Part shown: piece by piece, positions 21,892 to 48,784 of the stretch
How the letters are laid out: each line of letters begins with the position of its first letter
How positions within the stretch are numbered: position 1 is the stretch's first letter
NCBI RefSeq assembly: GCF_001540865.1
Contig: NC_033635.1
Coordinates: forward strand, 8,803,959-8,867,958
DNA length: 64,000 nt
Direction of reading: 5' to 3'
DNA from: Ananas comosus
Lineage: Eukaryota > Streptophyta > Magnoliopsida > Poales > Bromeliaceae
Notes under the pieces: model-generated
What the model saw: the letters and a program-made list of their open reading frames with translations, nothing else
Told to the model about the DNA's origin: nothing
Databases searched by the model: none
Program-made: the position numbers and the translations under genes

Positions 21892-21919
21892 TATATATAT
21901 ATATATATATATATTTATC

Positions 21920-22032
21920 TCTGTATGTATGAGATTTAGTATAAGTTACCTCCTTAGCAGCTAGGCCTTCGAGGTAGTAGCTTTTGTTGAATACTCATGC
22001 TACCAAGGTTATGATTATTATCATATCATCGG

Positions 22033-22070
<38 letters not shown>

Positions 22071-22460
22071 CCGACCTTATGATAATTATCAGTTTGTGAG
22101 ATAAACAATAGTTCAAAAATTGGGAACCTACTTTTTAACATCCCAGTCCTACTATAATCAGCCAATCTCAACTCACCAGGGGGATTCCAACTCACCAGGG
22201 GTGACCCAATATCATAAATTAGGTTACCAATCTTTATTACTTTTCTCAACTAGGTTTCCGATTTTTTGACCATCGTTGTTACCTTAAAAGGATGATTTTT
22301 TAATCATCGGGTCTTGTTGCCCGATATGATGAGATCTTAGAGCGATGATATGAGATATATTTATATTTTATGAAGTATGAATATATTTATATAAGTTACT
22401 ACCTCGAAGGATTAGCTGCTAGGTGAGTCAATTTATACTAAATCTCATATACTTTATTAT
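21920..22460. repeat. Foldback element, polarity inverted
   Basis: Arms at 21925-21980 and 22392-22455 are inverted copies of about 55 bp (TGAGATTTAGTATAA on the left, TTATACTAAATCTCA on the right). After complementing, the right arm contains AATCGACGATCC, like the interior of the MITE at 6520. Another MITE (22058-22320) is nested inside. Confidence 0.6.
22058..22320. mobile_element. MITE, polarity inverted, family of 7766-8017
   Basis: After plain complementing it starts GGCTGGAATACTATTAATAG next to (TA)n. It then carries TTTTTAACCCTTGGATG, GAAAAATTGTAGGGTC and CCCCACTGGGTTATAGTA, matching 8306-8420 in plus orientation. Confidence 0.75.
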
Positions 22461-22899
22461 TATTTCAAGTAGTTCGCTGATTTATTTTATTTGCCAGTTT
22501 TAGCTTGCTGCATAATATTTTAGTTACAAGCCTATTATAGTTAAATTCTAGTCTCAATAACTATTTTTTAGATATTATTACTTATTCTGTATATGATAGT
22601 TTTTAAGTTGGCATATAATTGTTATATATAAATGTGTCTATTTTATTGTTTTTCTAATATAGCCGGCAATTTTTAACAGTTAAACCACTGTAAAACTAGC
22701 AAGTTCCGTTTATTACAGCTTTTATATATTCTTTAAATAATTATAGATTTGTAATATTTATGAGATCTATTATTACATTATACCCAGTAAAGTTAAACTT
22801 TTTATATATTAGCTATTTATTGTTTACTCATGCTCCCGCTAGTATTAGTATATCTCATATTTTCGGCCTGAGATATATATATATATATATATATATAAC

Positions 22900-23200
22900 C
22901 TGACCCGATAATTTATGATATTGGGTCACCCCTGGTGAGTTGGTAATTTAATTTAGGATATTTTGTTTGTTAGTCCGTACCTTTTGATACTCATCATTTT
23001 GCGAGAAAAAGGATAGTTCATAGTTTGTGATTTGCTGCTTTTTAACATCCCAGCCCTGGTATTTTCAGGCAATCTCAAGTCACCAGTTGAACTCCACCTT
23101 GGTTTGGGTGGATTCGGATGTCATAAATTAAGTTACCAATCTTTACTATTTTTCTCTACTAGCGTTAGCTGACTTTTTGTCTATCGTTGTTACACTTACT
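22900..23200. mobile_element. Second MITE copy, polarity inverted
   Basis: Direct relative of 22058-22320. Shared blocks include CATCCCAG, ATAAATTA.GTTACCAATCTTTA and CATCGTTGTTA-like ends as printed. Flanked by (TA)n at 22870-22897. Confidence 0.6.
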
Positions 23201-24384
23201 TCGATGTTTATGTTTGGGTTAGGTTTAGTTCGATAGAGAGGTTGAGAGCGAGACCGGTTAGACTTATCCTTCGATTAGTTTGACGTTTAAAGCCAACCGG
23301 TTATTAAATAAGATTTAACAAAATGATTAACGGAAACTAACTACCTGCAAGATCGTCATAATCTCATCCTTCCTTTTTTTAATCTTTTTTCTTTTTGTTT
23401 CACGTCGGATATATGATGTAAGATACCTGTTTAATAGTTTAACTATCTCTTTCGTGGTATTTTAATTAGTAGCTCGTTACAACTCGGCTAGGTCAATTTT
23501 TGATTTATGAACGAACTGGCTTTTGAGACTTGCTATTATTAAAATATATATTCTTTTCTGTGTAAACAGCTTTAATTAGTACGATTTATTATTTATAATA
23601 AGTATTAGCGTATTACATGTACTCACCTTTTATCCGGGTTTTGATTTTTAATCACGTTCTTTTTGTCAACCCTTTCCTGCCGTATATAAAAGTAATATAA
23701 GGATTACTTTACGTGACTATTATTGGCAGTAAAAAAGATAGGGCGTTGAATTTAGAGCAGTAAAAAAGATAGGGCGCTGAATTAGAGATTAATGCATTTG
23801 TCATCAGATAATATGTTTATGAACATAGTCAATAGTTTTTTTTTTCTCACACTCTAAGGTCTATCAGAATATATATGTTATATTATTTCGATTATGAGAA
23901 TTAGGCTGAATTTGTAAAATCCACCACCGTTTCGGGCTCTACAATTATCTCAATTTATAAAATCATTTGAAAATTAGTAACAATGAAAAGTATTTATAGA
24001 ACATGGATTGTATAGATTTAAAAATTTATTTAAATGCAGTAAAAATCAGAAAAGTTATAGTGCGTGAGCCGTACGGTTTTATCTATATAGAATTAAGTTT
24101 TTAAGTTTTTAAACACGAAGTTTAATTTATCTTTTAATATAAATTTATACTTAAGTTAAAATTTATTTTTAAAATTAAAATTAAATATTTGACTTTTAAC
24201 TTGAATATAAACATTAAATGTACCGGTCGATTTTACAGCTGTAGTTGAAAATTTTTTCAGATTGTAAAGCCGTTTCAAATGTTGAATTATATTTTTGGTA
24301 AGTTTTAAAAACCTAAGTAAAAAAAAATTTTTTTTTCTTTTTCTTTTTAGTTTTGGACGTCCATCCACACATTACGACCGTGCA
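23201..24384. other. Inverted-tract intergenic DNA, no gene recognised
   Basis: Read after complementing, AT-rich plant sequence with no exon recognised. A short direct repeat AGTAAAAAAGATAGGGCG occurs at 23729 and 23760. Confidence 0.4.
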
Positions 24385-25695
24385 GGGTGTAAAAAGCCCG
24401 GCTTTGTTCGAGCCCCCGTCGGGCCGGGCCGGGCTAAATTAAAGCCCGGCCCGGCATGGCCCGGGTCGAATAGATGGGAGACCGGACCATGCCGGGAAGC
24501 CGGACCCTCCGTGCCCGGCACAAAGCCCGGCCGGATTATTTTATAAATAAAAATTAAAAAAAATTTTTTTTAGATTTTATATTTGTAGGTTATAAAAATA
24601 AATTTTAATTGTAAAACTAATTTTATTATTTTTTATATTTTTATTAATATGATTTCATTCATAAATTAAAAAAATTTTTTATTTATTTAAAAAATTTTAT
24701 TTTTCCATCTAAAATCAGGTTACCTGATTTTGTAAAACCAGGTAACCCGGTTTGACGTGGAGGGATCGTCTGGAACTCTGAACTCTCCTCGGGAGCAGGG
24801 GTCCTCGAGTCTGGTGTACCGGGTTCTGTCAACGGAACCCGGTACACCAGACCCGGGCCGACCTTGCCGGGTTCGACAAATACCTCTCAGAACTGGTTAA
24901 GCTTTCTAGTAAGCTACATCAACTTTATTGACTTAACCCCCAACAAACCAGTTCATTGCTTTTGAGTTAGTTTAAGTATTGACAGAGTTACATTAGAAAA
25001 TGAAGGAAAAAAAAAAAAGAATGAAAGAGATGGAGACTAAAAAGGTGGCTAGAACTGATATGGACTTAGATTGCCTATTGTTCCCAGTCATCAGATTAAC
25101 TATCGTATTAGATACGAGTTAAGACGATGAAGATTACCGTATAAAATCATTCAGTCGGGAACTAGGCTTTATGTCAATACCTAAGTAAAAGGTAATTATA
25201 GAGCTTTTTCTACTTAGAGACCAAACTTGAATACAAATTAGTAAGACCAGTTCTCCCTAGAAGTTTAGCTGCGATCCCGTTAAGGTATCTAAAGTTAGAT
25301 CGAGAACCGATAATCACCAAACGAAAGATTCTCCCTAACTAAGGGTCGTTGGGATGATTATTTCCCCGAACTTTCGACGTTTCCCACGTTTGAGTCCTTG
25401 TGGGATAGAATGATTATTTTTATTTCCTCGAGCTTTCGTTGTTGAGCATCTTATTTTCCCGGCTCAGCGATCGAAATGGAGCCGGGCCGTGCCGGGTCCG
25501 GGCAAAGCCCGGCACGGCACAGCCCGACAGCCCGAGGTTTTCCCGTCAGGTCGTGCCGAATCTCGGAGCCTGGTCGGACCGGCCTGTGCCCACGATATCA
25601 TGGACACGGCCTGAAATCGGGTCCGGGTCCAGCACGGCCCGGTCCGCCGGGTGCACGGCGGGCCGGGCAAAATGTCGGGATGACGTCCAACTTTA
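24385..25695. repeat. GC-rich GGCCCGGC repeats with a hairpin, polarity inverted
   Basis: Two blocks of GGGCCGGGC/GCCCGGC repeats (about 24385-24540 and 25430-25695) resemble plant hAT-derived repeats. After complementing, the second ends GGCCCGTTTTACAGCCCTA, as expected for such an element's end. A hairpin GTCTGGTGTACCGGGTTC / GAACCCGGTACACCAGAC lies at about 24811-24854. Polarity of the first block cannot be told from its own composition. Confidence 0.5.
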
Positions 25696-26811
25696 ACTAT
25701 GAGTTAAAATACCTTTTTGCATTAGCTTTCATTTGTTCCACCATAAACCACAAATAAAAATAAAGATTGAATACAAAATTTAAAAATAAAAAGTTGACCT
25801 TAAACTTAACATTTAAGTACAAATGTAATAATCGAAATTAACACTTGGGATGTTTAAATTTAATGTAAAGTCAAATGTGACCTTTACAATTAAACTTAAG
25901 TTCGAAATTCAAAATTCAAGCATAAACTTGAGTTTACATTCAAACAGGAATGTACGAATGTATTAACATTTGTCAGAACGACGTTGATCATAGAATATAT
26001 TAAGAATAGTAAGATGATTTTAATTACTTATATGTTGGTTTATGACTAACTGGTAAGGCATAATTAATTACTATTATTGTTCATGACATAATTAATTAAT
26101 ATTATTCATGTCATTCCATGTTAAGACAAGAATTAGGAAAGAAAACGAAGAGTGTGATTAATTTGTAATAATTAAATATGAATAAATAATGAGATATTTT
26201 AACAATCTTAAACTTATCTAAACATCAGTTTAAGTTCCATCTAATCCCACCTGTTACTTTAGATACGTTCTATTTAATTTATCTAAAACTTAAATTTAAT
26301 CTTATTTTGAAGATTAATTTGATCTTAACTCATGTAAATCGTTAACGACTCCTCGCTCAGATGTCACAGAACTCCCACGAAAACCCACTCGCCCATGCCG
26401 GCTAGCTCGGGGGTACCACATGCCGAGGTCGAACAGTACTACCATATGTGGACCACGTACTCACTCTCTCTTGCATGCACAGAAACCACTTGCACTAAAT
26501 AATCATATAAAATTATTTATCAATATAATAATAATTTCACCATTTACTTAATGACGGAGGTTTATTGTAAAAAATGAGTGTTACAAATTCGAAGATAGGT
26601 AGAAGAAACTTAAAGGTAGATGTTGGTTTTAAAGAGGTCCACAATCTCGTGTCTCATATAATAAATGGTATAAAATGACAAAGATTTATGCCATATTGTA
26701 AATGATGAAAATGATCTAAAGGTAGCCAAACATCTAGGAATTTTTACATCATACTGTTGTTTACGTCATCCTCTTATTTATTTACCTACTTACTAAAAAA
26801 AAAAGAAAAAC
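25696..26811. other. Inverted-tract intergenic DNA, no gene recognised
   Basis: Nothing coding was found in either the complement or the reversed reading. Confidence 0.4.
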
Positions 26812-26960
26812 TCTATATCCATCGTGCGATGGGCGAAGTAAATAAAATAAAATTTTATTTAAATCGACCTTTACACTTAGTTGATCCTAAGCTTGAATCC
26901 AGAGCCTATGGTCGGTGTTTCGGAAAACGGTAAACGAGATCTCTGTCAGCCATTACTACT
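26812..26960. repeat. Dispersed repeat, three copies in the tract
   Basis: As printed, ATCGTGCGATGGGCGAAGTAA to AACGAGATCTCTGTCAG; diverged copies lie at about 27360-27490 and 46376-46470 in the same printed orientation. After complementing it reads GGATTCGAACTTAGGTCTCG, the kind of phrase seen in plant LTR-derived repeats. Confidence 0.6.
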
Positions 26961-27582
26961 TACTAAACAACGTTAAGTAAATATCATAATATATAAAAAA
27001 TGGATACACCGTTTTAAATTTAAATAAAATATTTATTAAATTATATATATTTCAAAAAGACTCGATACTTATTTAAGTTTAAATGATAAATTAAAAAAAT
27101 TTTAAAACTAATATAATAGATTAGAAAGTTAAATAAACTAAACTTAATAAGTCGCTATAAAACAGAAATTTTAAAATTATATATCATTTATATAAAATAT
27201 ATTTAAAAATATTAATATATTAACAATTTTATTTATTAATCAATTTTTAATTTAACGTTGATAATAACAAATAAACTAAGTTAGTTTATTTAGTTATCTG
27301 CCATTTTAACTTCAAACTTTCTAATCTGTCCATTAAGTTTTAATAGTTAAAGAGATAAGAAAATTGAAAATGAAATAAATAAAATAAATTTTTATTTAAA
27401 TTAATTTTTTATATTTAAATTTTAAAAATTTAAATTTTTAAAGCCTACAGTTGGTAGTTTAATAAACGGTTAGCGAGATCTCTGCCAGGCATCAAAAAGT
27501 TTGTTGATGAAAATATTAATATTATGAAGTATTTTATTAACTTTTTTTTTTTAAAGGCTCGTGCTCGAGCTCGAGGAGTTGT

Positions 27583-30500
27583 TACAGCGCTTCGAGGAGG
27601 GAGAAGCAGGAGGAGGAGAAACAGAAGCAGAAGAAGGAGGAGCGCTTCCATAGCCTCCTCAGCTTCGCGTGCCACTCGTAGGGGCTGCTCGAGCTGCTGC
27701 ACCACCTGCTGCTCCTCCTGCTCCTTACCGCCGCCACCCCCCTCTTCGTCGCCCCTGGCGCCGCCTCGAGGAGGCTCGGGGGCGGTCTAAAGAGGGCATA
27801 CGCGGGGCGGCTCTAGGTCCGGCTCAACTACGCCTCGGTGTGGCCCGGGAGGATGCCTAAGCAGTTCGAGGCCAACCCTCAGAGCGCGAGATCCCATGCA
27901 TACCGCTAGTTACTACGGATAGCGCTTAACTAAGCAAAGGATCCTTAAAACTCATGAAAAGCTCATTTACCTCGATTTTACACTAATCTCAAAAACTCTA
28001 GTATCAAACCCCAAAGCTACGAAACAAGAATACAACTAAAACTACGCAATAACTCTCACGACACGTAAATCCAAGAACTAAAACTAGCCCTAATACCAGC
28101 AAATAACACTAAAAAGAGAACCCCTTGACAATAGAAGAACAAATAACAAACTTAATAATGATACTTGAACAGTACAACACTTATACCCCATTCTTTAAGA
28201 ATATATGTACCGCACACCCTAATTGTCCACCCTAGCTTGGGTGCTACATTGTCTTGCTTACTCAAATCCTAACAGAGACTATAGTACAATCGTTTTAAAA
28301 CTATATTCTCTTTTACTGGAACCTTATATAAATTGTTAATATAGACATTGGAAAATAAATAAGTCTTAAATCTAAAATTTAAAATCAAACCAATAGACGA
28401 AACGATAGTACTAATCGGTAAAATCAAAACCATTCTTCGCTTATGAGTAAAAGACACGCCTAATCACCGTAACTACTAAAGTCACTCACTAGTGACCAGT
28501 GACCCATTCCGGGGTAACATACGTATTACTTTGACAAAGTTGTTGATATATATAACATTCGATATGATCAGCTCCAAAACCACTAAACGGTACCTACTTA
28601 CTACCCTTTAAAACAGTAATTTGTAACAACTTACGTACTGATACTATCAAGTGACCAATTACTCTCTACAGTTGTACTCTATCGAAACGTATTGTCGTCA
28701 ATGGAATTTGTACGGTAACGTCGTTAAGTATGAGTCTTTCCGCAATTGGAAACTTCCAAATAAAGTGTTTCAAAAAAAAAAAAAGAAAAGTAGATCTAAG
28801 AAACAAAAAGTTCTTTAGAGCAACAAACTAACGTACGGTTTAAAGACCGACGCTACAAAGAGTACCACACTATACAAGATTAAATGACCCTGTATGAATA
28901 CGACTTATAGAATAAAAGGATGAAAATCACTCGAAATGAATGATACTATTAAGTTTCAAAAGAGTATACTTTTTCTAGAAATAAAGACACGACTTATAAC
29001 AGAACCAACTTTTGCTTCCGATCCCATATGGCCAAAAACCAACCACTAACCCAACCAATTTAAAAGTGATTTTAAATTCTTCACGGCCGTACTAACTTTG
29101 TATCACAATTGTCGATTTTTCCAAAATCACACGAGGTCGATTTATGTCAAAAGGCGTAGTACGCCTTGTCGAAAGTCGGGTTTTTATACCACTAATATCA
29201 ACCAGAGTAAATAGAAAAACAGTATTTAGTACAAAATTATAGATCAAAACTAACGAATCCTAAACTCCAAAAGGACAAAACTTCCAAACTAACGAACCAC
29301 AACCTGAAAACAGATATAATCTGGAAACCCGGTCATTGATAAGTAAGTATCTATTCACCTCAACGGGTAGTAAAAGGAGGAACAGATCCCGTAAAGAGTA
29401 CCTCCTAGTTATCTTGAGAAGGGAGCTAGACACTAGTAATTGGGACATGTATCAAAATCATCGAAGTATGATAGTCAAATTCAAAGTAGTCTCTTATTAG
29501 AGCAAACAACCAAAGAGTACTGGTTAATAAAGTCTAACATTCCAATTAGTGTTGACTGTTAACTAGTTCTTTATTAACTCGGTAGAACTGAGTTTTAATA
29601 CAACACCTTCTTACGAGTGTACGAATGTTGTAACAAACCGTTTCTTCTAGTGAAGAGCAGCTACAGGTTTCAAAGTATCAATGACCCGTAAACTATATCA
29701 ATCTTGATTGTAGACGTGAACATCGTGCACTGTTCTAAAACAACAAAACGATATTAAGTCAATACTTCACAACCAAAGATTAATGAACCTGAATAAATTT
29801 AATACCTACAGTTAAACAATCAAAACAACTCCTGACGTGTTCAAAAAGAAGTTGTTGAATTTGATGCTAGTCGAAACGTAATACAAAATATCTATAATTC
29901 AAAAAGTCCTACTATACTTTCTTTAAAACGAGGTATACTACAAGTTCGAAAATATAAGTGCAAAAGAGATTAAACTTTAGAAAAGTCCTCCTTTATGGAC
30001 TTTAACGATACTTTACCTCGCTTAATGACTCTTGACCGAGACACCTCTGGTTCAAGTACCGAAAGCTAGACTCATGGTAGTACAAGTGATACCTCTCCCC
30101 CGTTCTATATCTTCTCCATAACTGAATTAACCTCAGTTTGAGTTAGACTACTGGATGACGTATAGGGATTAGCACTCATCCTTAATAAACAAACCGAAAA
30201 AATAGATAGTACACCAGTCTTGATGAAAACTAGGACAAGTTTTTAAACAAAGATAGCATCATATAGGGTTATGAAGGTTGACATGCTTTGATTGCAGTAA
30301 TAAAAGTCATAATATAATAACAATTATTACATGGAAGTATCGTTTCTTTTGTTTAAGCCTCAAGGAAATAAGCCTTGAAATCTTAAATCCATGTAAGAGA
30401 ACCGTTTATAATAACTAAAATGACAGTAGGTGAACTCTAAAATCTTTTGTGTTCGTCAAGACTGAGTACTAGATAAGACATCAACTTTCTCAAACAGGAC

Positions 30501-30662
30501 TCGGTCGGCCTCCGTATACTCTACTTCTAGCCCCTAGATCAGATAGCTTCCGGACCTCTAGGAGGAGAGCTGCTTCAGTAACTCTACGACTCCTCTTTCT
30601 CCTCACAACGACTCTTGGTTCGAAGATGACTTCTAGTACAACCAATGCTTCTACTCAACATC
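27583..30662. CDS. MESD/Boca-like ER chaperone (hidden by polarity inversion)
   Basis: Found by complementing without reversing and reading left to right. Exons 27583-27894, 29988-30116 and 30483-30662 join in phase 0 to 206 residues. Both introns are GT-AG (GTACGT...TTTTCAG and GTATTG...CTGTAG). The protein has an N-terminal signal peptide (MSRSSSLFVLLLFVFVF, about residues 1-22) and an acidic stretch DELDDVVDDEEDEEW at about 36-50. A MESD-like domain follows (about 85-180: SYGFVKLRLG, EEIPEIAMKWSELLRTG, KFMAFDLSTIMF, ELKEFVLSQPEAYEM, VYRRPGDPP). The C-terminus YEDEL is a KDEL-type ER-retention signal. In animals MESD helps fold LRP-type receptors in the ER; the plant client is not known to me. 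Family identity comes from motif spacing recognised by eye. The next gene is convergent, its stop about 1.17 kb away. Confidence 0.88.
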
Positions 30663-31833
30663 TTAACGAAGCTCCGGCGGAAACACAGTGGTTATCTTTC
30701 TTCTATATTTGTTCTTAGAAATGATGCAATAACCTAATATTGTAGTATTATTATCCAACTTTAAGTTAGTTAAGAAAGGATGAAATCCAACAGTTCTCAC
30801 TTCTTACCTTCACACATGAGCGGTGATCGCTGTAACGTTAATAGTCACAACTATGATGAAACGTAGTGGAACCTTTCAACGATCGTTTTAAAACGGAGTA
30901 GAAGTTTAAGATACCAGATCTACTCTACACCCGAATGAGGAAACAAAGAAGTATCTTGTGATTGCATCAAGTTCAAGACTCAAGGAATTCGTCAAGCTCA
31001 AGGGACAAATCAATGTTGACTACGTGACCGTTTATCTATAGGTTAAGCTAACAAACGTTTATTCAGTTTTTTTTTTTTTTTTTGCGCACTTGAAGAAAAG
31101 GAAACGGATTTTTTTGACGTAACCTATAATGTCACACGTTTGTAAAACGGTAGAGGTGCCACGTGACAACATATTTTGAACCCCCGTTTCTTACATAGAC
31201 ATTGGTTTAGTCCGGGAGTCCGTACATTAACTATAGATTATAGCTAAAACTGATCATCCTAGTAAGTACTTATCCAAAAATCCCCCACAAGCCAAAGACT
31301 TTTTGTTTTATAGAGTTTTTTTATTAAAAGATAAACTTTTTAATAAAAAACAAACAAACTAACGATCCTTTTTACCAAAAAGGCTTTTTTTTTAAGGCTT
31401 AAAATACCTTTTTATCACAAAAAGAAAAAACTTAAAAAATAGGTCTTTTGTTTTTGGCGGCTTTTCTCTCAAAAGGTGTTTTTTTTTTAAAGGATTTTCT
31501 AGTAAGGGTGTAAAAAGGCTCCTTGGTTTGTCAAAAAAGTTGCTCGAGATGAGTTTGTTGAGTAACCTTTTTCGAGGCTAATCCCGGTTTGACCAATCGA
31601 CTCAACTACGGGCATCTCGAGGCACTACGTAAGGTACGATCGTTTTTAGATGTGTCTTTTGAGTTAGTGGTTGTGTTTTTTCCCTTATTGTATTTTAAGA
31701 TCTTAAACTTTACACCAAAGAGCTTTTTTTTTTTTTTTTTTTTTAAAGTAGTCCATATTAAATACACGAACGTTAACGGGTTTAGATCAACTTACTTAAC
31801 CTAAGCGTTCGCAATTGTTTCGGATTTTACGTC
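30663..31833. other. Intergenic space between two convergent hidden genes
   Basis: Should hold the 3' untranslated regions of the MESD-like and HAD-like genes. It is T/A-rich with homopolymer runs (31069-31083, 31722-31743). No other exon was recognised. Confidence 0.5.
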
Positions 31834-34800
31834 AATAAAATCGAAAAGCGACTTCAGTCACTCCAGGTTGTCCGCTTAGGAACCGTATGAAGGACGAAGG
31901 AGGGAGAGAAAGAGACACAACATAGGGGTGGAGGGACGGTTTTCTTCTGTTATAATTCTCGTTGACATTCTCTCCATGAATTGTTGGTCATGTTGTGACT
32001 TGTTCGTCTTTGTTTTTTCTAATGGTTCTATGTTTAAGGTAACTAGTTCACGCCCTAGAAACTACTGCAAGAAGTTCCAACGTTCGGATAGGAGGTGTTT
32101 TGACCGGTCCTGGTTTAATCATTTTATTCGTTTTCATAAAAGTTCTTACGTGAACAGTATCTGTTTATCCTGCCTTCTTCACGTAATGGAGGATAATATA
32201 AGGATAGTTGGGAAGATAGAATATACACGTACTAAAGTTTGAGTTTGTATCGACGGATAATTTCCTCGATTTTAGTTGAAAGAGAGTTGAGTCTATAACA
32301 AGTGGAAACCACGTAACGGGTAACCTATTAGATATACCAAACTATATGATAATGAGTAATCTGGTTCTCGATACGGTGTAAATTACCCTTACCGATGTAC
32401 GAAACCGATAGACTACTACGACCGATTTCAATTTAATCAGCGTTTGTGTTTGTAAACTTGAGAAAGTTACGTGAACCTAAACTGTAGTCTCACCCTCTTC
32501 TTTTCTTTTCTTAAGAAAAGACAACGAAAAGACTTACAGACCATTACATTGTTCATTTAGGATACGAAAGGTCACATTATCTTCATCGTGAACTCTAAGA
32601 TAAATCTCTCCTATAGCATGAAGCCATCAATCAAAACGAAAAGGAGGGGAAACAACGATTTCTAATAAACAACCCTCAGAATTTTTGGTTAACAAAATGT
32701 AAAATACTTACGCTGTTTTATACTTAATCCCCTTTTCTTGTCATTACACGTCTTATTCTATCATGATGATGAACGTTTTTCCTTGTGTACGTCATAAATC
32801 TTATACTCTACCAATGTTAACAATTAAAGTTGTACATGGTTTTTACAAGTTAACTGTGTAATGTACTTATACTTGGTGTTCTCAATCCCCTTTTCTTAGT
32901 GTTATTAGTGTTACATGTCTTATTCTCTGATGATGAACTTGTTTCCTTGTGTACGTCATGAATGTTCTTAATGTTAACAATTGAAATTGTACTTATTTTT
33001 TAACTGCGTAATGTACTTATACTTGGTGTAATCAATCTTGAATGACTTCAAAGTCTGGCAGTACGACACTGTAACTGACGTCGACAAAATCGTGAAGATG
33101 AAAACCGGACTTTTAGTTATTCTACAGTTTAGTATTTTGTTACTGAACTTTACCCTTACTGTCTTGACTTCACGTTTTTAAATATGATTGGGTCAGGGAT
33201 TCGGTATATAAGAAAGTCTTCCCTATAATTGAGGTCGCTCAAGAGCGTTGTTACGAAGCCGTTTAGACGAGACTTCGGTTGTGTTCTGGTTAATTTCTAC
33301 CTCTCTTATGTTCCTGTTTTTTACTAGGATGTTACAAAATGTCGCCATATTTATACTATCGTATACGTTGATTTAATGATTACCCTCTTGACAATCCATA
33401 ATTTCTTAAACGAAAATTTTTCTGAAACCTCAAACTGTGCTTCTCTGTTAACATCTTTGTCTTTTTTTTTAAGAATTCTTTTATTTCTGTTATGGACGAA
33501 ACATCACTGTTATATGTGAAGTCTCGAACTTTTAGAATTCCGTAGCCGATGTGGACCTATTTTAGACGTCACAGTAGATGACCAGTTATATACTTAACAG
33601 CTAAAGTAACCAATTTTATTCATATACTCATTTTCGTCGATAAATGCGTGAATGAAATCTCAGTTTCCTCCTTCGGCACATCGATATCATCTTAATTAAA
33701 GTGATCTACAACATTATCAAGTCTTTTAGAAGATAATGATAAAACAGTATTCTTGGTCGAAACCAGAATTTAACAAATTCTAATAATTTCAAACCAATTT
33801 TTAGTACTTACGTAATTTTATACCGACTGTACTTTCCGACACTCACTAACCTTTGATTTCTCTTGTCTAATGTCTGTAGCTGATAAAACGATATTATCTC
33901 TCCTACTGTTGACATTGCCTCCTCTATTGTATCAATGAAATCCTGACAGTTCTATTCTCTTAGACGATAAAATACTTTCTCTGATATTCAAGTGTGAAAA
34001 GGGGACAAAAATAAGAGTAATCAAACAAACGTTTGAGCAACAATAATGGTTACAACATTAATCTTTAGTCTCAGGTTGATGATGTGAAAGTACTCACGTT
34101 AAAGGAAGTATGAGTATTCATCAAAAACCACTGTCTCTAAAGTCTATTTGTTAGCTATGGTAATTTTTACTAAATCTTGTAAACTTGAAATGTCTTTGAC
34201 AAAGTACTAAAAAATTGTGGTATGGAATGTTAGTTTTCCGGAGTTTTAACTATTAAAATTGCTACCCTTACCCCGCGAAAGATCAAATTACAATATCTTC
34301 TTTGGTCTAGCCAACTTAAAAAATATCTTTTAAATAAGTGATAGATTTAGTTTTATTTATTGAGACTAGAAGTAAACTTCTTAGGCTAAAAGATAAACAG
34401 TTTCCAACAAGTTAAATTGGCCAGTAAAATATGGGCGAACTACCTGAAATATTATCAATGCTTCCTATTTCTTTAAATCAAAGATTTATGAAATTTACGA
34501 GCTAGTATAAATTGCAATACCTAACAGTTAAATCTTCAAGATAATAACTTTTGTTGATTATTCGTGCTTCCGAAGGTATGTGTATTTTCATATCATTCGC
34601 AATGAGATCTTTAATTATTTCAATAACTAAATAAGAGTTATAAACGAAAGGTTTCCTTTTATTCTAGACTACGTTTGGAACAATTACCCATTGATTCTTA
34701 TTGTCTTAGCTTCTTTTTGTTTTGTGTTACTTGTTGTGTGGGATGGTCAACTCCCAAAAGTAAAAACAAAAAATATTTATTACTATCTTATTAATACATA

Positions 34801-36533
34801 GAATACTTTTTTTCATTAACGGCATTTTTGAACTGTCGTGGAACTTTCGTGGTTTGTGAAAGTGTTTAATCTTAGTTACGTTACGTAGAATAACAACAAT
34901 GGTTTTAATGCGCCGATTATATCAATATTTGAAGTCAACCCCCCTTTAATACGTTATAAAAAACTGTATGTAACTATAGTAAAGAGTGATTTTACTTAAA
35001 GTATTCACTTATGAGAATTGATAATTGATAGCTTGTCACCTGAGACACGTTACGTTCTCAGCTCGTAAGCAACGTTCTCGGACATTACTTACTCTAACTT
35101 CTTTATTACCAAGCATAAATAATGGACAATCGCGGTTAGGTGGGACTTTTCAGTAAGGAATAGGTAAGTAGGGAGTGAAATGGTTTCTCTAGCTAGTTTC
35201 GTAGAGAGAGAAGTAAGGTGAGAAAGTATTACTGCCCGAAGTCAACGTTGGTCAAGAGGTTATACCGGACCTATGAGTCGGGTAGACGTTGGATCACACA
35301 TATCTTATCTTCATGTTGAAGTACTCTGTTGTGGATGACGAATCACTAAAGAAAGGTTGTAATTTCGAGACTTAATCATCTATTGTCACGAATGGCTACT
35401 AAAAGCTTAACTACCATAGACTTAAAGGTTATCGTTGGATTGTTCGTTGTCTAAAAGTATAGGTCAAAGCTGGTGTCCTGCTTCGATCGTCTTCAATTCT
35501 CTGTAAACAATCTAATCTGTCGAAATAGTGAGTTTTACTTAACAATTCCAGTACAATCCATAACTACATACAAACGACTTAAACGACTTTGTTTTGTGTT
35601 ATCATTGTATTTTAACGATCAAAAGTGTAGGTAGGTTCAAAGTGACGTTTGATAGACTGTTTCTGTTGCTATTTTCGTTCCTTAGGTGGTTGGACGTGCA
35701 GATTAGTATACCATTTAAAAAAATAAATATTTTGTTATCTGCGTTGTAGTTTGTTCCAGATTTAAAAATGAGAACGTCCTACTTCTGTTAAAAAGAAAAA
35801 AGTACGATGTAGTTATCTAATAAGGATCACCAACAATTCCGGAACGAAGTAGTATAAACTAAATTTGAGATGTTCGTTCTCTTAACCGACGGACAAACAA
35901 GGATAGTTCCGTATTTTCGTCTGCGTACAGATTTGTACCGGTGATGATATATGATAATCGTCCATTTTCTCGAGGTTTTTAACGCCTGAAATTAAATAGT
36001 TATGAAGATTATTACATCTAGTACAGATCCCTACCTCGATAACGGTCCGGGTGTCGTTGGTACCGGGGGGAGTTGAAAATTTTTTTTAATGTATTTCCAG
36101 GTATAAATACTATATCTTTTTTAATTTTATAAATATTTAAGTTTTCCAGTTTCATTTTATAAAAAGCATCTTTGGAACAAGAAATATAAGACTTGAAGAC
36201 AATATCAAATGAAATATTAAAAACCGGGGTGGTTTTTATTTAAGGCCGAAGCAAGACCAGTACAGAGTTACCTTGTTTTTTGTTCTTTTATGGAGTTTCA
36301 AGGCATGTAAGTTTCTGTTTATTTAACCCATATAAGGTATTTAACCCATATAAGGTTGTTAGAGACTACTAAACCTCATTTACTTAATACATCAAAGAGA
36401 AGGTTTTAAAATTTTTTTCTTTCTTGTTTCACTCACCGCTTCGAGTGTTACACGTAAACCAGTTATTAGGTGAGAAGGCACCTGTTGAAGTGAACTAACT
36501 TGTCTCTTCCGGTGGCTTAGAATCGTCGGATAA

Positions 36534-36570
<37 letters not shown>

Positions 36571-36725
36571 ATTTATCAATCGGATATTATTTTAATCAGA
36601 AAAAAAACTTTTTTTTAACATTTAATCTTTTACTTTTTTTTTTGGAACTCTCGCCTCTCCCTCGAGAGCGGCGTCGACAGCGTCTCCTGCGGTAGTTTCA
36701 GGTTGCGTATTTCTAGTGGAGGGTA
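31834..36725. CDS. HAD-like hydrolase, 269 aa (hidden by polarity inversion)
   Basis: Found by reading the printed letters backwards without complementing, right to left. Coding exons: 36725-36645, 36528-36448, 35484-35395, 35291-35125, 33564-33495, 33270-33191, 33107-33045, 32101-32025, 31934-31834. They join in frame to 269 residues, and all eight introns are GT-AG. HAD motifs: I, LDFDGVLCDSCGESS (D9, D11); II, YIVTTKQ (T160/T161); III, the lysine of PKVEVLKQL (K192); IV, LHFVEDRLATLKNVI (E214, D215). Conserved plant blocks include KIRWPSLF, RPVVETGYENLL, DEWIRNDFSGWIG and ERIYGLGTG. It matches a widespread, poorly characterised plant family of putative phosphatases that I recognise but cannot name with a symbol. 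No transit peptide is evident. An acceptor 5 bp before the ATG shows that a 5' UTR intron precedes it. Confidence 0.92.
32725..33035. repeat. Tandem duplication of about 150 bp in an intron of the HAD-like gene
   Basis: Two diverged copies (about 32725-32880 and 32880-33035 as printed) share TTAATCCCC/TCAATCCCC...TTTTCTT, CCTTGTGTACGTCAT and GTAATGTACTTATACTTGG. It lies wholly in the intron between coding exons 7 and 8. Confidence 0.7.
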
Positions 36726-38600: not shown

Positions 38601-39499
38601 ATTATGTAAAATTTTCATTTTCGGTATAATCGTTGTTTTTTATCTGTCTTTTTTTAATTAGGCCTCGTTTAGTGTTGATAAATGTTCATTTGTGTTGTTA
38701 CATTTAAGGTAATGGTATATTGTTTAACAGGTTTATTTTTGTGTAGTGTTGTGTTGTTAAATTTTACATAAAATTTTATTTTTTTTAATTCTTGTTTCCA
38801 TACGTGTTTCTCTGGTTGTATGTTGCTTAGTGTTGTATTATTAAGTTTTACCTTTTCTCTATAGTTACAAGTTTAATCTTTAAACCTAGTCACAAGTTTA
38901 ATCTTTAAAACCTTTATTATTAGGTTTCCTTGTATTTTACTTTTTTTATTTTTTTTCTTCGATAGTCACTTACTTGTATGTGTGAGATTGATCACCTTAT
39001 TAGTCTTAATTTGTTACGTTACGTCGTATTTGATTACCTATATATTCATCGTTGCCACTAGTATACGACAGTTTCCTCTATGATCTTTACGTAGAACTCG
39101 TGTTATGTTTATTTCGATTTGAGTGCTTTCGGGGCTCCAGCCCCCGTCCTCTTCCTCCTCCGCGGCTCGAGCTTCCTCTCCTGCTACGCGCCTGCCCGCT
39201 AGGAAACGGAACAACCTTCGTCAGCAACCGCTTAAGGGTTGCTAGGTCGCGCTAGATGGATGGATTTAGGGACAACTTTTTAGTTGTGATCTAGGAGTAA
39301 TCTTCGGTTTGAGGCTTTATCTAGCTAGCTAGCTAGCTAGCTAGCTGCTTCGATCTCTTCAACAACCACGGACTTTATGAAGCCCGCCGCCACCCCCCTC
39401 CGCTTCCACCGGTTCACCCCTCCGCCTCTCTCTGCTCAGACGCCTCGCCACTACAACTCCCTCGGACACTTAACACTACGACCCCTCGCTCAGTCCCTC

Positions 39500-42400
39500 T
39501 CCTTACTAATTTTCCTATATTATATCCTTTATTTTAAATTAAAATTTTCTAGAACTGGAAATTTAAAACTAGGTGTTTATTTACCTAGGGACATTAAACT
39601 CAACCCGATTATGATTATTAAGTTGCTACTTTTAGATATAAAATGTGTGTATTAATATATAATTTATATATTATATAAATTTATATTTTATACACATAAG
39701 TTCAATAATAACCTGGCTCGCTTATAAACAATTTATTCAAACGCTTTGCTCATTAAGCTATAGCTTAAGTAAAGCTCGATTTGTACTAGATTTAACACTT
39801 CACGTTCAATCTAATAGCAGGGATAATATCTATTGAATAAGATTATAATTTGCTCTTGTAATCATAAACATTTTCTATGGTGTTGTTTCAATTTATTAAT
39901 AGAGATAAAAAAAGTAAAAATTATCTGATTATGCTACTTTTCCGTTTTAATGTTTAATACAACCAGAGTGGTAGAGTTTCCCTGGCAGTGGTAAACAAGA
40001 TGGGCTGATAAGAGAGAGATAGAGGAAGATGCGACCTTAAAAGTTTAAAAAATATCATATTTTTTATTATGAAGATCAGTGGTATAATGGTTTTACTTTG
40101 AATTTTGAAGAAACTTAATATATTTAATGAAACTAAATGTTTTACTCTGATTAAGTAATGGCATCTGTGGTGTTCAAATGGTTCAGAAGTTTTTAAAACT
40201 AGGATGTGTAAGGGTAAATAACTTATCGTACGCCTTTTTTCACCTTTTATTTTAGTGTTTGATGAAGATCAAGTGTTTATATAAATTTTATTGACGTATT
40301 TTAGTACAATGATTCGCGGGTGAACGTTTGTCAAAGAGTTGTGGTTGTTTAAAGAGTTGAGGTTATATCTTGTTGGCGTATAGGCCGTTTTTGTGTACGA
40401 GATTAAACACCAGCAAGCTTGTCAAGATAAATTTATTGTAAATGTTCTTCGTGATTAGTGATCAAGTCAGTTTATATAGGATTCTATTTTAATCCGTTTT
40501 TTTTTTTTTAAAATTATTTGATTCTTGTATGTAAAAATTGTCAGTGTGACAATCCCGGTTATTATTTTGCGGTGTACCGTCCAATCACGTGCTAAGTCGG
40601 CCCTTAGAATTTTCAGTCCTAATTTACCGTAAACCACGTGGCCCTCATTTTTTCCTTATTGTTTTACTCTTTACGAAGATATGTGGCCGGTTAAATTTAG
40701 GCTGGTAAGTTTAAACACTCCAATTCTAACTAAAAATATGTTACCATTGGACGAGTTGTCCAATGGTTAGTTAGTATTTCTATTATAAAATTTTATACGT
40801 AATCAATTAATGGTTTAAACTATTATAGGTTGTTTAGAAGTAAAGGATTAAATTAAAACAATGAATGGTTTAATTTATTGCTGATTAAAGTATTCACTAT
40901 TTAGAAATATTTAAGCTTAAAATTTTAAATTGAACTCAAATTTGAAATATAAATATTAACATATTTAATTTATATTTAAAATCTTTCTTATATAAATTTG
41001 CTCATTTGTAAAGTTAAGTTTAACAATTAAATTATAATTTGATTGTACTTTCAAGTTTTTACAATTATAGAAATTTTAACATTAAATTCAATATCACATA
41101 AAAATTTGAAAATAATAAATAAATTTATTTTCTAAAGATGTAAAATTTCATTCAACTTTAACAATTAAGTTATAACTTTTTCCCGTAATTTAAAGTTTTT
41201 ATAACTAGTTTAAATTTAATATTTAAACCTAAATTAAATATAATATGAATTTTTTATTTAAAACAATTGATAAATTTGTATTTCAAAGTTACAAACTTTT
41301 AATTAAAATTTAATATTTAATGATTTAAATACTGAGTTACGCTAGTATTTAATAATAATTTTAGCTGGAATTTTTACCTATTAAATTAATTTTTAAATAA
41401 AAGAGGTACTAAGTTCCCGTCATACGTTTTGAAAGGTTATAATCAATAAATTGAAAGATTATAATCGAGAAAAAAAAAGAGTTTTTTTAAGGATCTAAGT
41501 GTATGGACCACTGGCCATGGTGAACACGTTATCGTACAGTAGAAAAAAATACGTATTTAGAATTGGGAAGTAACTAATTTTTATTTGCCGATTCTAATCT
41601 TACCTCATAACTTCGTAACGAGATTGTTTTATTGGCGTTCGCCAAAACTCGCCAATCCTAGCCGAACATCACCGGGTGCTTTTGTCTCTTCACCGACTAG
41701 CACATGTATCGGTTTATTATTATTCGCCTTATATTTATCCGCTCATCGCGGACTTCTTCCCCAGAAAAAGGTCGCTTATCTTCTGGCGGAAAGACAAAGG
41801 TGTGTAAAAGAAATGAAAGAATCTTCATCAGATTGAACATTAGAAAAGGAAAAGGCGTAAATGACAAAAAGAATCCTCATCAAAATTCAATCTAAAGACC
41901 TCAGACATACGGCGTGTCCGTGTAAGAGAAAACGTGTTCAAAGGTTTAGATTAAAATTATATATTTCCGTAAGCCGAAAAGTCGGCTGGGTTTGATGACA
42001 CATAAGACATGAAAGCCGAGTAGTTGGCTTGATTAAGATGTCATTTCTAGAAGCTTGGGCCGAATAGGTTAGGGAGTAGTCGGCTTAGCAAACTAGGCAG
42101 CCTTCCGCACTTGAAGCCCCCAGTGGTGCACTTCGGCATGGATTAGGGACGTGCGAAGGGATCTTTCTAAAAACTGGTCCAGTTTCTAATTCCTTAAGCC
42201 GAGGATCGTGTGTGGTATCTCTTACAGCGTTTACTGTAGTCTATGCTTTTAACGTAGGCTTGTTCCAGATTCAGAGAATACAGAAGGTTAACTCAACCTA
42301 CCACTGTTAGAGTGGTAGAATTTACCTTTATATCTCCTAAGCACCATAGAACGTTTAATCACTTTCCTTGCTGAGGTTTGAACTTATAAGTTAGTGTATG

Positions 42401-44559
42401 CAGTAGTTTCTTTAAACAAAATAGTAAGATTTAAGATTATCTAACTCAGTTACTCCACTTAAGAAAGAAGACCGTAGAGAGAGCTAAACTGAGTGGGAAG
42501 TGCCGCCGGTTTGGTGTACCCAGTGGGCGGGAACTTGATCTGGGTTTCCTTAGACGTTCTAATTCGGGTTTTAGTAGTTCGAACTTATTGAGTAACACGA
42601 ATTAAACGGTATTAATGATTTGTGTAACGTATTAAGATGGTTTATCGATTTTTAAAATGTGATTTCCACTCTATCCTATCACTTTTAAGGACTAATAGTC
42701 AGATTACGATAATATAAACAATACAAACTCCCAGCGATAAGTCTGGTGTAAAGTACAAAACGGAGCAGAAGGTGGCCGTACCACTGTTTCCAACTATAGT
42801 CACTTTTGGATTTATTAAACGGAAAAATTCATATTAAAGGAAAAATTCATCAACAGATCTTTATATTGGTCTAAAGACCACTTACAGCAGACATGACTTC
42901 TTTTTAGTAGTTCCGACGAAGAAGCTCAATCTACATATCAGAAGGTGAAGAAAAGTTTTCTTGAAAATAAACGATTTTAACGAGGTATAATAAATAAGTT
43001 CGTCTTTGTATTGATTATAAAGTGTTTTACAAAATGTATAGTACCAATTTATTAAGATCGCGGTTTAACCTCTTGTCAAGTGAGTTATCATTTTAATCCC
43101 AATACTGTTGTGTACGTTCATCAGGGTTTTAGAGTTCAGTGGATGAAAAAAGAAAGATTTTATTCATGTAACCAGGCAATATTTTACTTGCAGATAATCA
43201 AAGAAGTATTTAATAGCACAGGTTCAGGTAAATGTAAGGAAAAGAATGAGAAGTTCGAAAATTTGAAATTAGTTACATGTGGTTCATTACGTTTTACTGT
43301 TGGAAATGGTTGTAAAAGTGTTAAATAATAAAGAAATAGAAAAAATCAAAGTATTAATATGTGACGTAGTAAGAATATAACCGAATTTAAGTTGAGTTTT
43401 GTGTTTCGAGTCGTATTATCAAGTTATCATTTTCTCAGTCAATTAATCCTTAACCATTTACGTTTAAATATCGTTTAACAACTACCGAACTACGTATAGG
43501 TGGTGTTTTTACCTTGTCTGATTTTACTCTTCCTACTTGTTTGGTAAATAAGAGATTTGAATAATCCTCTAAAAACTATTTACTACCACATGTTCGAGAT
43601 TATATTCAAGTATTTGTTTTTTACTTTGTTAGAAGTTCGTATGTACATTGTACTATGTTTGCTTGTTTACTTCTTTTTTTTGGGCGTCCAGTGTGAAGTC
43701 ATAGGAAAAAGAATGTAAGAGAGTTGGTTGTATAAATACCACGTAAACTAAACCCCTGTTGCACCTTCTATACAATAGGATGATGACAACTATTCACTTC
43801 TGTTTCAGCTAAAGGTCGAACGTTATTTCTCTACTTTAAAACTAACAATACCCCGTTAGATCCTACTTCCTTTTACCTATCGTGGTGAATCTCCACAATT
43901 GACCTTGCAGTCAAAGGTTCAAAGTGGTTTTGTTAGTAAACAGCTTGACAAAGAACACGAACCGTCTTACTCCATCAATTATACAAAAGAGAATATGGGT
44001 CTAGTTTGCATTTTTTCCATAAAAGACCCATTTAATCTTTCGGCTTTTAAAAAAATCTTCATATATTCGTTAACGGGGTTTTATTTTTAACGTTAATAGA
44101 GATTTTAACTTAACACAATCTATAAATCGTAACACTTTCTACCTTTTTTATTTAATGGGGTGTTTTGTACAAAAAAAAGTATTTTAACTTAAAACGAAAA
44201 CACGTCAACTGTACCAAAAGAAGTGAAAACGTTGTTAAGCTAAGACTTTGACATTTTAAGCGACTATTCTTAAGAAAACATATAAATCAATCACACTAAA
44301 TGAATGACATCCACATACAAACAACATTTTTTATTTTTTATTTTTTGATGTTAACTAGAGACTTTAACTTAAAACATCTATAAATCGTAAAACTTTGTAC
44401 TTTTTGGATTTAATAGAGGATTTTGTTATATATAATCTTCCTCTTCTTAATCGTTTAATAGGCGTTAAACGAAGTCGAAAAAGAAATCGACGAAGAAATA
44501 CAGTCGGATCATCTCTCATCTCTCCATTGGTAGTTAGGGTTTTCGAGTAAATTTCGTAT
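39500..44559. other. Inverted-tract intergenic DNA; one TATA-like site
   Basis: No complete exon set was found in either corrected reading. After complementing, 41731-41740 reads TATAAATAGG, a good TATA box, followed by a pyrimidine-rich leader, perhaps an LTR promoter. Reading backwards, 42760-42950 stays open for about 43 codons without a recognised domain. The plus-strand frames at 41585 and 43080 depend on the wrong polarity and are rejected. Confidence 0.4.
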
Positions 44560-45000
44560 GACTATATTATGGGTGCCTACAGCTAATACTGAGCCGGGTT
44601 GATCAGAGTGCGATGACGATTGTACTGAATCGGGTTATACCGGAGGGCGATGTCCCGTCCTACAACCGGGTAAATTCGATTGTTACTGGGGAGATCGTAA
44701 ATGTGTATAAACATCGTACCCTTTTAGTTTGGGCACTGGTGACCGATATTATAGTGAACAGCCTAACAACCGCGATTGGTAATTAGAGTTTTTGAAGTCG
44801 ACAATCTTTATATGTTGGTTAAGTGAATTTCGCATGTCTATATCGCGGGTGCCCAGAGCTAACACTGAGCTGGATTGGTCGGAGTGCGGTGAAGTTTGTA
44901 CTGAGCCGGGTGGTAGGAGTGCGGTAAAGCTTATACTGAGCTAGGTTATACCGGAGGGCGGTATTCTGCCTTACGACCAGATAAATTCGGTTGTATAAAC
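44560..45000. repeat. Duplicated repeat, polarity inverted
   Basis: Two diverged copies (about 44568-44700 and 44835-45000). After complementing they contain GATTGTGACTCGACCTAAC-type units. Between them lies AATCAAACCCGTGACC...GGATTGTTGGCGCTAACC, a phrase typical of plant dispersed repeats. Confidence 0.6.
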
Positions 45001-45239
45001 TGCAATAATCTATTTTACTTCAACACTATTTTCATATATCCTTATACAAAGATATAAGAGATTACCCTAGCGTCTTTTATATAGCATTGGCTAAGTAGCG
45101 TTATACGCCTTGTATTTTAATACATGCCTTTGTTTATCCTATAAAAGAGTAGCATGAAAGAGTGGCATGCATTGCGTTAGAGGGGGCTTAGAGTTTGATT
45201 GGGACTTAGTAGTGCTTACCGCAACTGGATACAGTCTAA

Positions 45240-45780
45240 ACCAACGCCACTCTAAGCCGGAGGAATTCCACTGCTTCCGAAGGTTGCGCGCTATTTAATC
45301 TCTCAGATTCTGACGTACTTTATATCGGTTTCACCGTTTCCGGAGTTTTCCAACCGTTTCCGGAGGTTTCCATTCTTATAAAGTGCGATAACTTCATATA
45401 TAGATCGAATGGATTGTCGAGACGCTCGCCTGACTGAAACCGGTCTAGAGCTCATGACCTTCTCTTGGGTTCACTTAATCCGGTTTTGGGATTTGGCTTT
45501 CATACGATCTTATCGAAATCGAAACCGTAACCTCCGCCCCCGTCTCCTCGTCGAGAGTTCTTCCAGTCAGCCTTAGTAGAGGATCTCATCGCCTAAACTC
45601 CTAACTTCCCTTCGGGAGATTTAAACTGCACGTGTTCTGGCGTTTCTAGCTTCTCGTTGGACTCTAAACGAGGGAAGTCGACGTTTAATTCCTCACTGAA
45701 GCTGTTCTACAACCGACTGTAGTTAAATAATCCTAAGTCGCTGGGCAGGCAGGAGAGCAACCAAGGTGTAATCTTAAAGA
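45240..45780. other. Possible exon of a third gene, polarity inverted
   Basis: After complementing, a telobox AAAACCCTAAACC (about 45485-45497) is followed by GC-richer sequence. One frame is open for roughly 57 codons, through IEGKPSKFDVHKTAKIEEQ. A second overlapping frame contains DFDKMLADINLLGFSDPS. No start, splice pattern or domain could be fixed, so this is only a candidate. Confidence 0.3.
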
Positions 45781-45959
45781 ATAGAATATCCTATAAGAAT
45801 ATACATAGATCTAGACTACTTTTAACAAATTAAGGTATCGCTTACTACTAAAATCGACCTAAAAGAAAAATAGCGAGATATATACTAGAAAGACAACTTT
45901 GTATTGTTTTTCTTATAAAAGGAAGAGAGAGTCACTATACGCCACTCAAGGAGGCATAG

Positions 45960-47888
45960 GGACAGGATGCCAAATGTTGTCACACCAAAATGTAGCATAG
46001 CTGATGGCTATAAAAAAAAACAAAATTAATTAACTTTAATGGAATTATAACTTTTTTTTTTTTTTTTGACTTCGACCCTCGACGCACTATGTGAGATACT
46101 CCAGTGGTGGAGACAACCTCACGGGATTAATTAATTAATTAAACTAAACTAAACAATCAACCTCAATAATTAAATTAAAAAATTATAATTAGAAGCTTAA
46201 TCTTCTTGAAAGAGGAATAGACAATTAACCGAATCAAAACCAAATCAAGCGTTGAAAAGAAAGATATATACGTGTTTAGCTTCAAGTATAATGGTAAATA
46301 ATTTTTGATGTTTTATGCGCCACGTTGGTTAGAAATTAATCAATAACGTAAAAGCTTAAAAGTGCGTACATAAAAAACTCTCTATCTATCGTGCGATAGG
46401 CAAAGCAAATAAAGTAAATTTTTATTTAAATCGACCTTTACACTGTTGATCTTAAGCTTGAATTCAGAGTTTAAAAGTGCGTACATAATTATAATTATGC
46501 ATCTCGTGCAAAGATAGGATAATTTAATAATTAATTTAATTTATATTATTTTAGTGTTAAACCTCACTCGCACCTCGATGGCGTAAGTCAACATAAACAC
46601 TCCCGTAAACAGAAACCATATAATGTGGTTTCTCAGATATTGGAAAAGAAAAAGAAAATTTTAACCTAGAGGCTGAATTGAAAAAAAATAATTAACTCAA
46701 AGATTAGTCGTTTTTAAAAAGTACACCCGCGACTGCACTGCCACTTAACCACATTTAAAACTAGAGGTTGAAAAAAAAAAAGTTAAAAAGTTAACCTAGA
46801 GAAAAAAAAAACTATTAATTTTTTTAAATATAAAAATAATTTTAAAAATACAATCCATTTTTACCAATTGTTTAAATCACTGCGGTAATCAAGTTGTTAA
46901 TTAGCTAAACTAAAATAAATTATTCTTTAATAATTTTGATAGTTTAAAGTATTTTTTTTTTTTGTTTAAAAATGATTAAAAAAATGAAAATAGTAAAATT
47001 TAGGTTCTTGAGTTTTCCAATTTTTTTTTTAGAGTTATTTTTTTTTTCGTTAAGGTGGACATGTGGTATTTCCCTGTATTTAGATTGTGGGAATAAATTA
47101 TCAAATATATAAACTAGGAATAAAGCGATTAAAAAAGTTTATAATTTTTAAGTTCCCGAAAATTTTAGATACTACTCCGCTACATTCTGGATGTTGTGAA
47201 AAAACTTACATGTTTATCGTAAAAATTAATTTTTTCAGAATTCTCAACTTCCCCAGTTTGTCATTTTCGTCAAATCCCTGATTTAATTTTTTAGTTTTTT
47301 TTCCAACTCTTGAGTTAGCATTTATTTATAGATCCCTGTGTTAACTTTTTATTTTTTTTCAATCTCTGGTTAATAATATGATGATTAGATTTTTTCTTAC
47401 GCTTGAATCGTGGTGCAGTCATGGGTGCACCGCTGAAGGTACTTTTAAGTGTAATCTCTGAGTTAAACTTTTTTAAAGAACTACGGAACAACCCCTGAGT
47501 TAACTGTTTTTTTATTCGATCTCTGGGTTAATTGTTTAAGTCCTTTTCCGAGCCGTGATAAAACCCCGAGAGAGAGTGACTAAAAAGACAATTAGAGAAA
47601 GAATAGAAAATGGTATGTTGGATTTATAATATTTATATTTTAAATTAAATTATGTACGTTAGATTTATTATATTTTTCTGGTACATATTTTTTAATGTCT
47701 TAAAATTCAAAAATTAATCTAAAATTTTTATGTCAGATATTTTAAATAAAAATATGATTCACTTGTCTTATAAAGAATAGGTGTTTTGAGAAATAAAAAA
47801 GAAGAGTTGACATTGTTTAATAACATTAATAGGCTAAGTAACTACGTAGCGTACGTGATGAATAAAATTTTTCAATGATATTATTTTA

Positions 47889-47927
<39 letters not shown>

Positions 47928-48300
47928 GTTTGGTACGACAGGCTTTTTAGATTTTTGTTATTAATCATCAACTTTTCCTTATGCCATTTGTTGTTGACGG
48001 TTTCGTGGTCTATGAGGATTTTGAAGTAAAGTAAAACGAAAAAGCATAACCTCGATTTTCAAATAGTGTATAATTTCGTAAAGGAAACTCCTTCATCTTC
48101 TCGGGCTTTATACTCTGGGTTAGCCAATTGTTAACTTTGTGAAATAACTTATGCTATTCATTTAGTACTTTTCTCTCTTGGTATGTAAAGCCGACCATTT
48201 TAATCTTCACTACGGAGCCTTTTAAATGTAGTATCTTTCTTCGTTGATGGTAACTGTTACCTTTCTTCATAATCTTCTCTTCTTTGGTTTTCGTTAATTC
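45960..48300. other. Inverted-tract intergenic DNA
   Basis: AT-rich. It includes the dispersed repeat copy at 46376-46470 and a (TA)n run at 47896-47926. No gene was recognised in either corrected reading. Confidence 0.4.
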
Positions 48301-48490
48301 TTATCCCGACCGTTTGCTCGCTCGGCCGAGCGCAAGCTGAGCACAAGCCGAGCTATAAACCGAGCGAGCTCGAGCTGAGCTTTAATTTACTCGGTTCGAA
48401 CTTGTTTTATTTTCCGAGCTTTAAGTAAAGTTCGGCTCGAACTCATAATGAGCCGAGCAAGCTTAATCCGAGCTTTTCGAGCTTTTCGAG
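48301..48490. repeat. hAT-like repeat at right end of inverted tract
   Basis: After complementing it starts AATAGGGCTGGCAAACGAGC and continues with GGCTCG blocks, as in 9656-10235. The following (TA)n (48493-48541) is insensitive to polarity and hides the junction. Confidence 0.65.
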
Positions 48491-48544
<54 letters not shown>

Positions 48545-48547
<3 letters not shown>

Positions 48548-48761: not shown

Positions 48762-48784
48762 CAATATATATATATATATATATA

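Follow-up and report, generated by a model that had tools for sequence, protein, structure and literature searches.

Here we report that a 26.6-kb tract of a public pineapple genome assembly is printed in the wrong strand polarity. The tract occupies positions 21892-48540 of the window, by which we mean the whole 64,000-base stretch of DNA analysed (C15:8803959-8867958, in an assembly of 381,958,007 bases and 3128 contigs that is likely that of cultivar F153), and its text is that of normal DNA complemented without reversal, which equals reversal without complement. As double-stranded text the two operations are the same, and the window alone cannot tell which was performed. By sequence comparison, the tract very probably duplicates, with flipped polarity, a locus on contig C8; this second copy is likely the other haplotype and likely entered contig C15 through faulty contig joining.

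Strand polarity of the tract

CpG outnumbers GpC within the tract (858/603, a ratio of 1.42), the ratio being 0.83 in either flank. The initial annotation had described this excess as running line after line. Its example, 28681-28740, does hold 6 CpG and 0 GpC, and the description stands overall (CpG > GpC in 22/26 kb bins of the tract, 5/21 of the left flank and 4/15 of the right) but is slightly overstated, as four of the 26 bins lack the excess. The TA/AT ratio is 1.14 in the tract and 0.89 and 1.01 in the flanks; the corresponding values for (CA+TG)/(AC+GT) are 0.80, 1.19 and 1.04. A hexamer polarity model, defined as the log-ratio of a text versus its complement and trained on DNA from elsewhere in this assembly, was negative in 13/13 two-kb bins of the tract (mean -38.6), while 120 control bins had a mean of +25.5 and included five negative ones. 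Of those five, four proved to be within or next to flipped tracts detected afterwards, and the run search left the fifth, C8:3084001-3086000, uncalled. Trimer and tetramer models trained on one flank scored 21 to 25 of the 26 tract kb bins as complement-like.

Two putative genes, both of conserved plant families, were built on the complemented, unreversed text: a MESD-like gene of three exons with a predicted product of 206 amino acids, and a HAD-like gene of nine exons with a predicted product of 269 amino acids.

MESD-like gene model, + strand of complemented text:
27583-27894, exon 1
29988-30116, exon 2
30483-30662, exon 3 including stop

HAD-like gene model, - strand of complemented text:
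36645-36725, exon 1
36448-36528, exon 2
35395-35484, exon 3
35125-35291, exon 4
33495-33564, exon 5
33191-33270, exon 6
33045-33107, exon 7
32025-32101, exon 8
31821-31934, exon 9, stop inside this stretch

That two complete genes emerge on complementing, as had been claimed, is borne out, with GT-AG at 10/10 introns. These introns are not independent evidence, however, because GT-AG was imposed as a condition in gene building. Independent support for the predicted models is their agreement with protein record P0003 of Ananas comosus var. bracteatus, matched by the HAD-like product over 252/253 residues, and the copy on C8, with equal exon lengths and AG/GT at inner exon borders. A Pfam search of both proteins returned 0 families at 1e-3. 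The MESD name rests on PF10185, given for many homologues, and on weak PDB matches to Mesoderm development candidate 2 (three chains, E 0.003-0.005), and the HAD name on the names and PF00702 given for some homologues. P0003 itself carries the UniRef name 'Ribosomal RNA small subunit methyltransferase G', likely a carried-over misannotation. No pineapple MESD-like protein was among the matches listed (120 of 334). In at least seven species of the two homologue listings, both families have neighbouring locus numbers, six times consecutive and once three apart; the HAD-like/MESD-like pair is therefore likely a conserved neighbourhood.

Homology was fully recovered by complementing or by the equivalent reversal only. 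For tblastn, queries were taken from the matches listed for the HAD-like (120 of 1261) and MESD-like (120 of 334) products and for the left-flank Ty1/copia element described below (120 of 7987). All 240 listed homologues of the two genes matched the complemented tract and 0/240 the printed one, the outcome predicted by the initial annotation, which had proposed a BLASTX search with the complemented text. The copia homologues behaved in the opposite manner, matching the printed flanks only (120/120 left, 26/120 right) and giving 0 matches on complemented text. Among the 24 letter permutations tried, only the complement (A<->T, C<->G) yielded all 240 homologues and all 12 flank matches described below, so that a single letter mapping without reversal restores homology, as expected of a sequence-handling error. 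The other permutations were weak: two yielded 119 and 25 queries and one a single query, and two yielded one and two flank matches. The best scores of the 119- and 25-query permutations were 52.8 and 47.4 bits, versus 117 for the complement, and their top matches shown fell on the same HAD exon.

These data also bear on the idea that the tract is an ordinary chromosomal inversion or a region of unusual base composition, to which we assign a negligible probability. The CpG excess alone could be compositional, but mere composition is rejected with the dinucleotide and polarity-model data plus the recovery of homology. An inversion is rejected because the reverse complement does not restore homology: with 120 queries, complement and reversal each gave 120/120 matches and the reverse complement 0/120.

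Repeats show the same polarity. In blastn of the tract against the flanks (E<=1e-5) there were 12 matches for the complemented text and 0 for the printed text; at a looser limit, with the tract in four pieces, the printed text produced five matches, of which four fall in (TA)n and the fifth spans 21 bases. The earlier claim that repeats match the window's own copies only after complementing thus holds; for the flank copy 8306-8420, the score is 143 with the complemented tract and 26 with the printed one. The matches of 38161 and 48301 to 9656-9725 are short: in complemented form they score 34, a value that 0/200 shuffles attain; the printed scores are 17 and 21, which 41 and 16 of 200 shuffles attain. 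The Ty1/copia element of the left flank serves as an internal polarity control.

22034-22310, strand not assigned, repeat, likely a miniature inverted-repeat transposable element, matching 7771-8056 only once complemented
13223-20975, + strand, Ty1/copia element in normal polarity, left flank; long terminal repeats (LTRs) 13224-13823 and 20375-20975, 95.8% alike

The copia element looks complete, with stops in its coding frames and a GC-rich stretch at about 14000-14850; no pineapple source for it was named among the matches listed (120 of 7987).

The edges of the tract had been placed in (TA)n, with a single N on the left, and this was confirmed; a run of the hexamer model puts the tract at 21883-48559.

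21891, no strand, single N at the left tract edge, likely a join between assembled pieces (flips were found at other single Ns too)
21892-21914, no strand, (TA)n at the left tract edge, near-identical in either polarity
48493-48542, no strand, (TA)n at the right tract edge, no N here
48543-49382, + strand, normal-polarity remainder of the piece ending at the next single N (49383), with normal matches from 48560

The right edge is bracketed by the last complement-only match at 48353 and the first normal match at 48560, and the (TA)n between them is its natural place. No repeat element split by a tract edge was seen in blastn of tract versus flanks, and no tRNA genes were found in the tract in either polarity.

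The counterpart on contig C8

Megablast of the reversed tract returns 13 pieces on C8:3045363-3072090, that of the printed window 0; relative to the + strand of C8 the tract is a plain reversal. The longest aligned stretch is 96.4% identical over 11.7 kb, with 308 mismatches plus indels, a collinear copy elsewhere at allelic divergence as would be expected of a misplaced haplotig. By blastn, keeping plus-strand pieces on diagonals 4500-6900, 17 pieces cover 22906 of the 26649 bases; their mismatch of 4.9% is inflated by secondary repeat matches among them. Both proteins match exon by exon on C8:3057568-3066722 in normal polarity (eight matches for one and three for the other), the exon lengths equal those of the tract copies, and exon bases differ at 14 positions in the HAD-like gene and seven in the MESD-like gene. 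The C8 genes are intact in the exons compared, with five residue changes in each protein. No protein match on C15 was reported in the assembly search with both proteins, which is what an unreadable printed tract would give. Judging by these matches, neither predicted gene is lost from the assembly, C8 carrying both; the idea that the HAD-like gene was missing, suggested by its single UniRef pineapple record, was rejected on the same ground.

Heterozygosity in three pineapple accessions is 1.89-2.93%, according to excerpts of PMC6139296. On these comparisons the tract is likely the other haplotype of the C8 locus, and its position on C15, where it stands polarity-flipped, is likely a misplacement. 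Alternatively, the tract could have arisen by an old segmental duplication from C8 and rightly sit on C15, with only its polarity wrong, so that complementing or reversing it in place would be the repair. In favour of this, identity falls to 88-94% in several aligned pieces and sizeable indels separate the two copies, more than is typical of an allele, and flanks and tract have repeat families in common. Nevertheless, the C8 homology ends close to the edges of the tract, C8 is not matched by the printed window, one edge is a single N, and the best-aligned 11.7 kb fits an allele given a heterozygosity of 1.9-2.9% (excerpts of PMC6139296). We consider such a duplication unlikely. Because the tract is a second copy of a C8 locus and may not belong on C15 at all, complementing it in place is probably not the repair: the wrong contig would likely still hold it.

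The flip might also have been introduced in preparing the window or the genome copy and be absent from the public record. A 3026-base locus taken from the assembly across the left edge is, however, identical to the window letter for letter, and flips occur on many contigs, by single Ns that belong to the assembly. A preparation artefact is therefore very unlikely.

Recurrence in the assembly

The initial annotation treated the flip as a single stretch, but it recurs. We scanned 304 kb (164 kb of C15, 100 kb of C8 and four 10-kb samples) by hexamer runs and homology; four flipped tracts emerged, and in each of them a single N marks one edge. The model runs are C15:8797036-8799136, C15:8825841-8852517 (the 26.6-kb tract), C15:8885459-8888992 and C8:3005061-3006405, and one edge of each lies 4-8 bases from the single N, or 136 bases for the C8 tract. 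In the blastn test of recurrence, C15 tracts were searched against a database with the C15 tracts masked, and for the C8 tract matches to its own locus, L027, were dropped; the 26.6-kb tract gave 99 matches complemented and 2 printed.

C15:8797029-8799136, no strand, further flipped tract by a single N, blastn complemented/printed 58/1
C15:8885456-8888992, no strand, further flipped tract by a single N, blastn complemented/printed 18/0
C8:3005061-3006268, no strand, further flipped tract by a single N, blastn complemented/printed 11/0

The sole printed match of the first of these falls on L027, which holds the C8 tract, and the DNA following the second, C15:8888993-8891055, is normal (31 printed, 0 complemented matches). 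Among control one-kb windows outside the C15 tracts, taken away from their neighbourhood and with no more than 100 N, 1/255 scored below -10, and it overlaps the C8 tract. That tract has a 90.5% relative in normal polarity a few kb away, at about C8:3013350, so it may have been inserted close to where it comes from.

Across the whole genome, a 22-base repeat word occurs 2305 times in normal form and 47 times reversed but uncomplemented, on 31 contigs, with a chance expectation of about 0.00004; for an LTR word the counts are 61 and 2. An error at one place only is rejected by these counts and by the further tracts. The pooled flipped share is 49/2415, or 2.0% (1.5-2.7%), which would correspond to about 7.8 Mb on the assumption that repeats sample the assembly evenly.

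Several observations weigh against this account. Two repeat words underlie the rate, and with 18/47 flipped sites on contigs numbered above 25 the repeats may over-sample poorly assembled DNA. The right edge of the 26.6-kb tract has no N, nor has the other edge of any of the four tracts, so the joins do not simply run from N to N. A flipped side was found at only 4/20 single Ns in the 304 kb, at a mark of -10 (the right kb of the 26.6-kb tract scores -9.2); the N would therefore be a marker of joins and not their cause. In the opposite flank, too, the one-flank trimer and tetramer models score 5 or 6 of 15 or 16 kb bins as complement-like, the hexamer model being the sharper of the two kinds. 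Finally, the C8 divergence fits an allele of a highly heterozygous plant but is compatible with a paralogue as well.

Elsewhere in the window, 56658-56740 is a cloning-vector polylinker with a T7 promoter end, matching plasmid records at 98.9% over 88 bases and 100% over 58, and is likely a bacterial artificial chromosome (BAC) insert end left in the assembly; the HindIII site and the BAC vector type are presumed. It closes a piece (54741-56740) that is exactly 2000 bases long, has a single N on either side, repeats the following 56742-58613 at 93-95% identity and is likely a redundant BAC-end piece in tandem. The vector remnant fits the F153 assembly because its data, given in excerpts of PMC6022998 as Illumina, Moleculo, PacBio and 9400 BACs, included such clones.

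Origin of the flip and known systems

Taken together, the data strongly favour the initial annotation's reading of a sequence-handling error: only the complement restores genes and repeats, inversion fails, and the same assembly has the locus in normal form. The cause is likely a systematic contig-joining error in the public reference and not biology. We infer that a script placing minus-oriented pieces did half of a reverse-complement operation. A joining or gap-closing step would complement such a piece without reversing it. Since (TA)n is much the same text in both polarities, its presence at each end of the tract may have allowed an overlap check to accept the wrong end. Contigs that abut with no overlap detected are separated by one n in the output of some scaffolders.

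Neither read mapping nor gene prediction nor homology search can see a flipped tract. If about 2% of the assembly were flipped, loci would be lost or doubled, read depth lost, and false unique DNA and false synteny breaks created. A simple check for any assembly is the hexamer log-ratio of text versus complement, or a common repeat word counted backwards. Literature searches, mostly of open-access papers, turned up no report of polarity flips of this kind among the papers listed; PMC7194464 contained none of the search terms for such an error and the excerpts of PMC8824783 nothing on polarity flips.

A last explanation is that the cell itself made the tract by 'swinger' polymerisation, a systematic A<->T + C<->G exchange along a stretch contiguous with regular DNA, which is indeed what the window displays. 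We know of no polymerase established to copy in parallel polarity, and this counts against it, as do the 252/253 residues of a known protein kept after undoing the exchange, without sign of misinsertion noise, and the edge at a single N in 4/4 tracts. Although the transformation follows the sole rule reported for swinger DNA according to PMC4942731, such an origin is extremely unlikely. Conversely, a handling error offers a concrete alternative explanation of published swinger DNA. The chances are slightly better than even that about 2% (roughly 6-10 Mb) of the widely used pineapple reference is flipped sequence attached at single-N joins, which no homology search could have seen since the release, and that published 'swinger DNA' matching the rule reflects the same half-done reverse-complement error.

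Misplacement of a haplotig, an unmerged allele, in a draft assembly is another close parallel. Like a misplaced haplotig, the tract is a second copy, a few percent diverged, from a heterozygous plant assembled from mixed data types; unlike ordinary haplotigs, which keep correct strand polarity, it has the wrong one. Potential chimeric regions and gaps are reported in F153 v7 (PMC8774480), but the available excerpts, unlike our findings, do not mention polarity flips. Swinger DNA by the A<->T + C<->G rule has been published and ascribed to polymerases (excerpts of PMC4942731 and PMC7027195). The tract resembles it, as described in PMC4942731, in the base-by-base rule, in its occurrence in public nuclear (there also mitochondrial) sequence and in forming chimeras with regular sequence. 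It differs in being 26.6 kb long, in abutting a single N, in duplicating a normal locus and in belonging to a class that recurs at single Ns; it is therefore a handling error that accounts for the tract.

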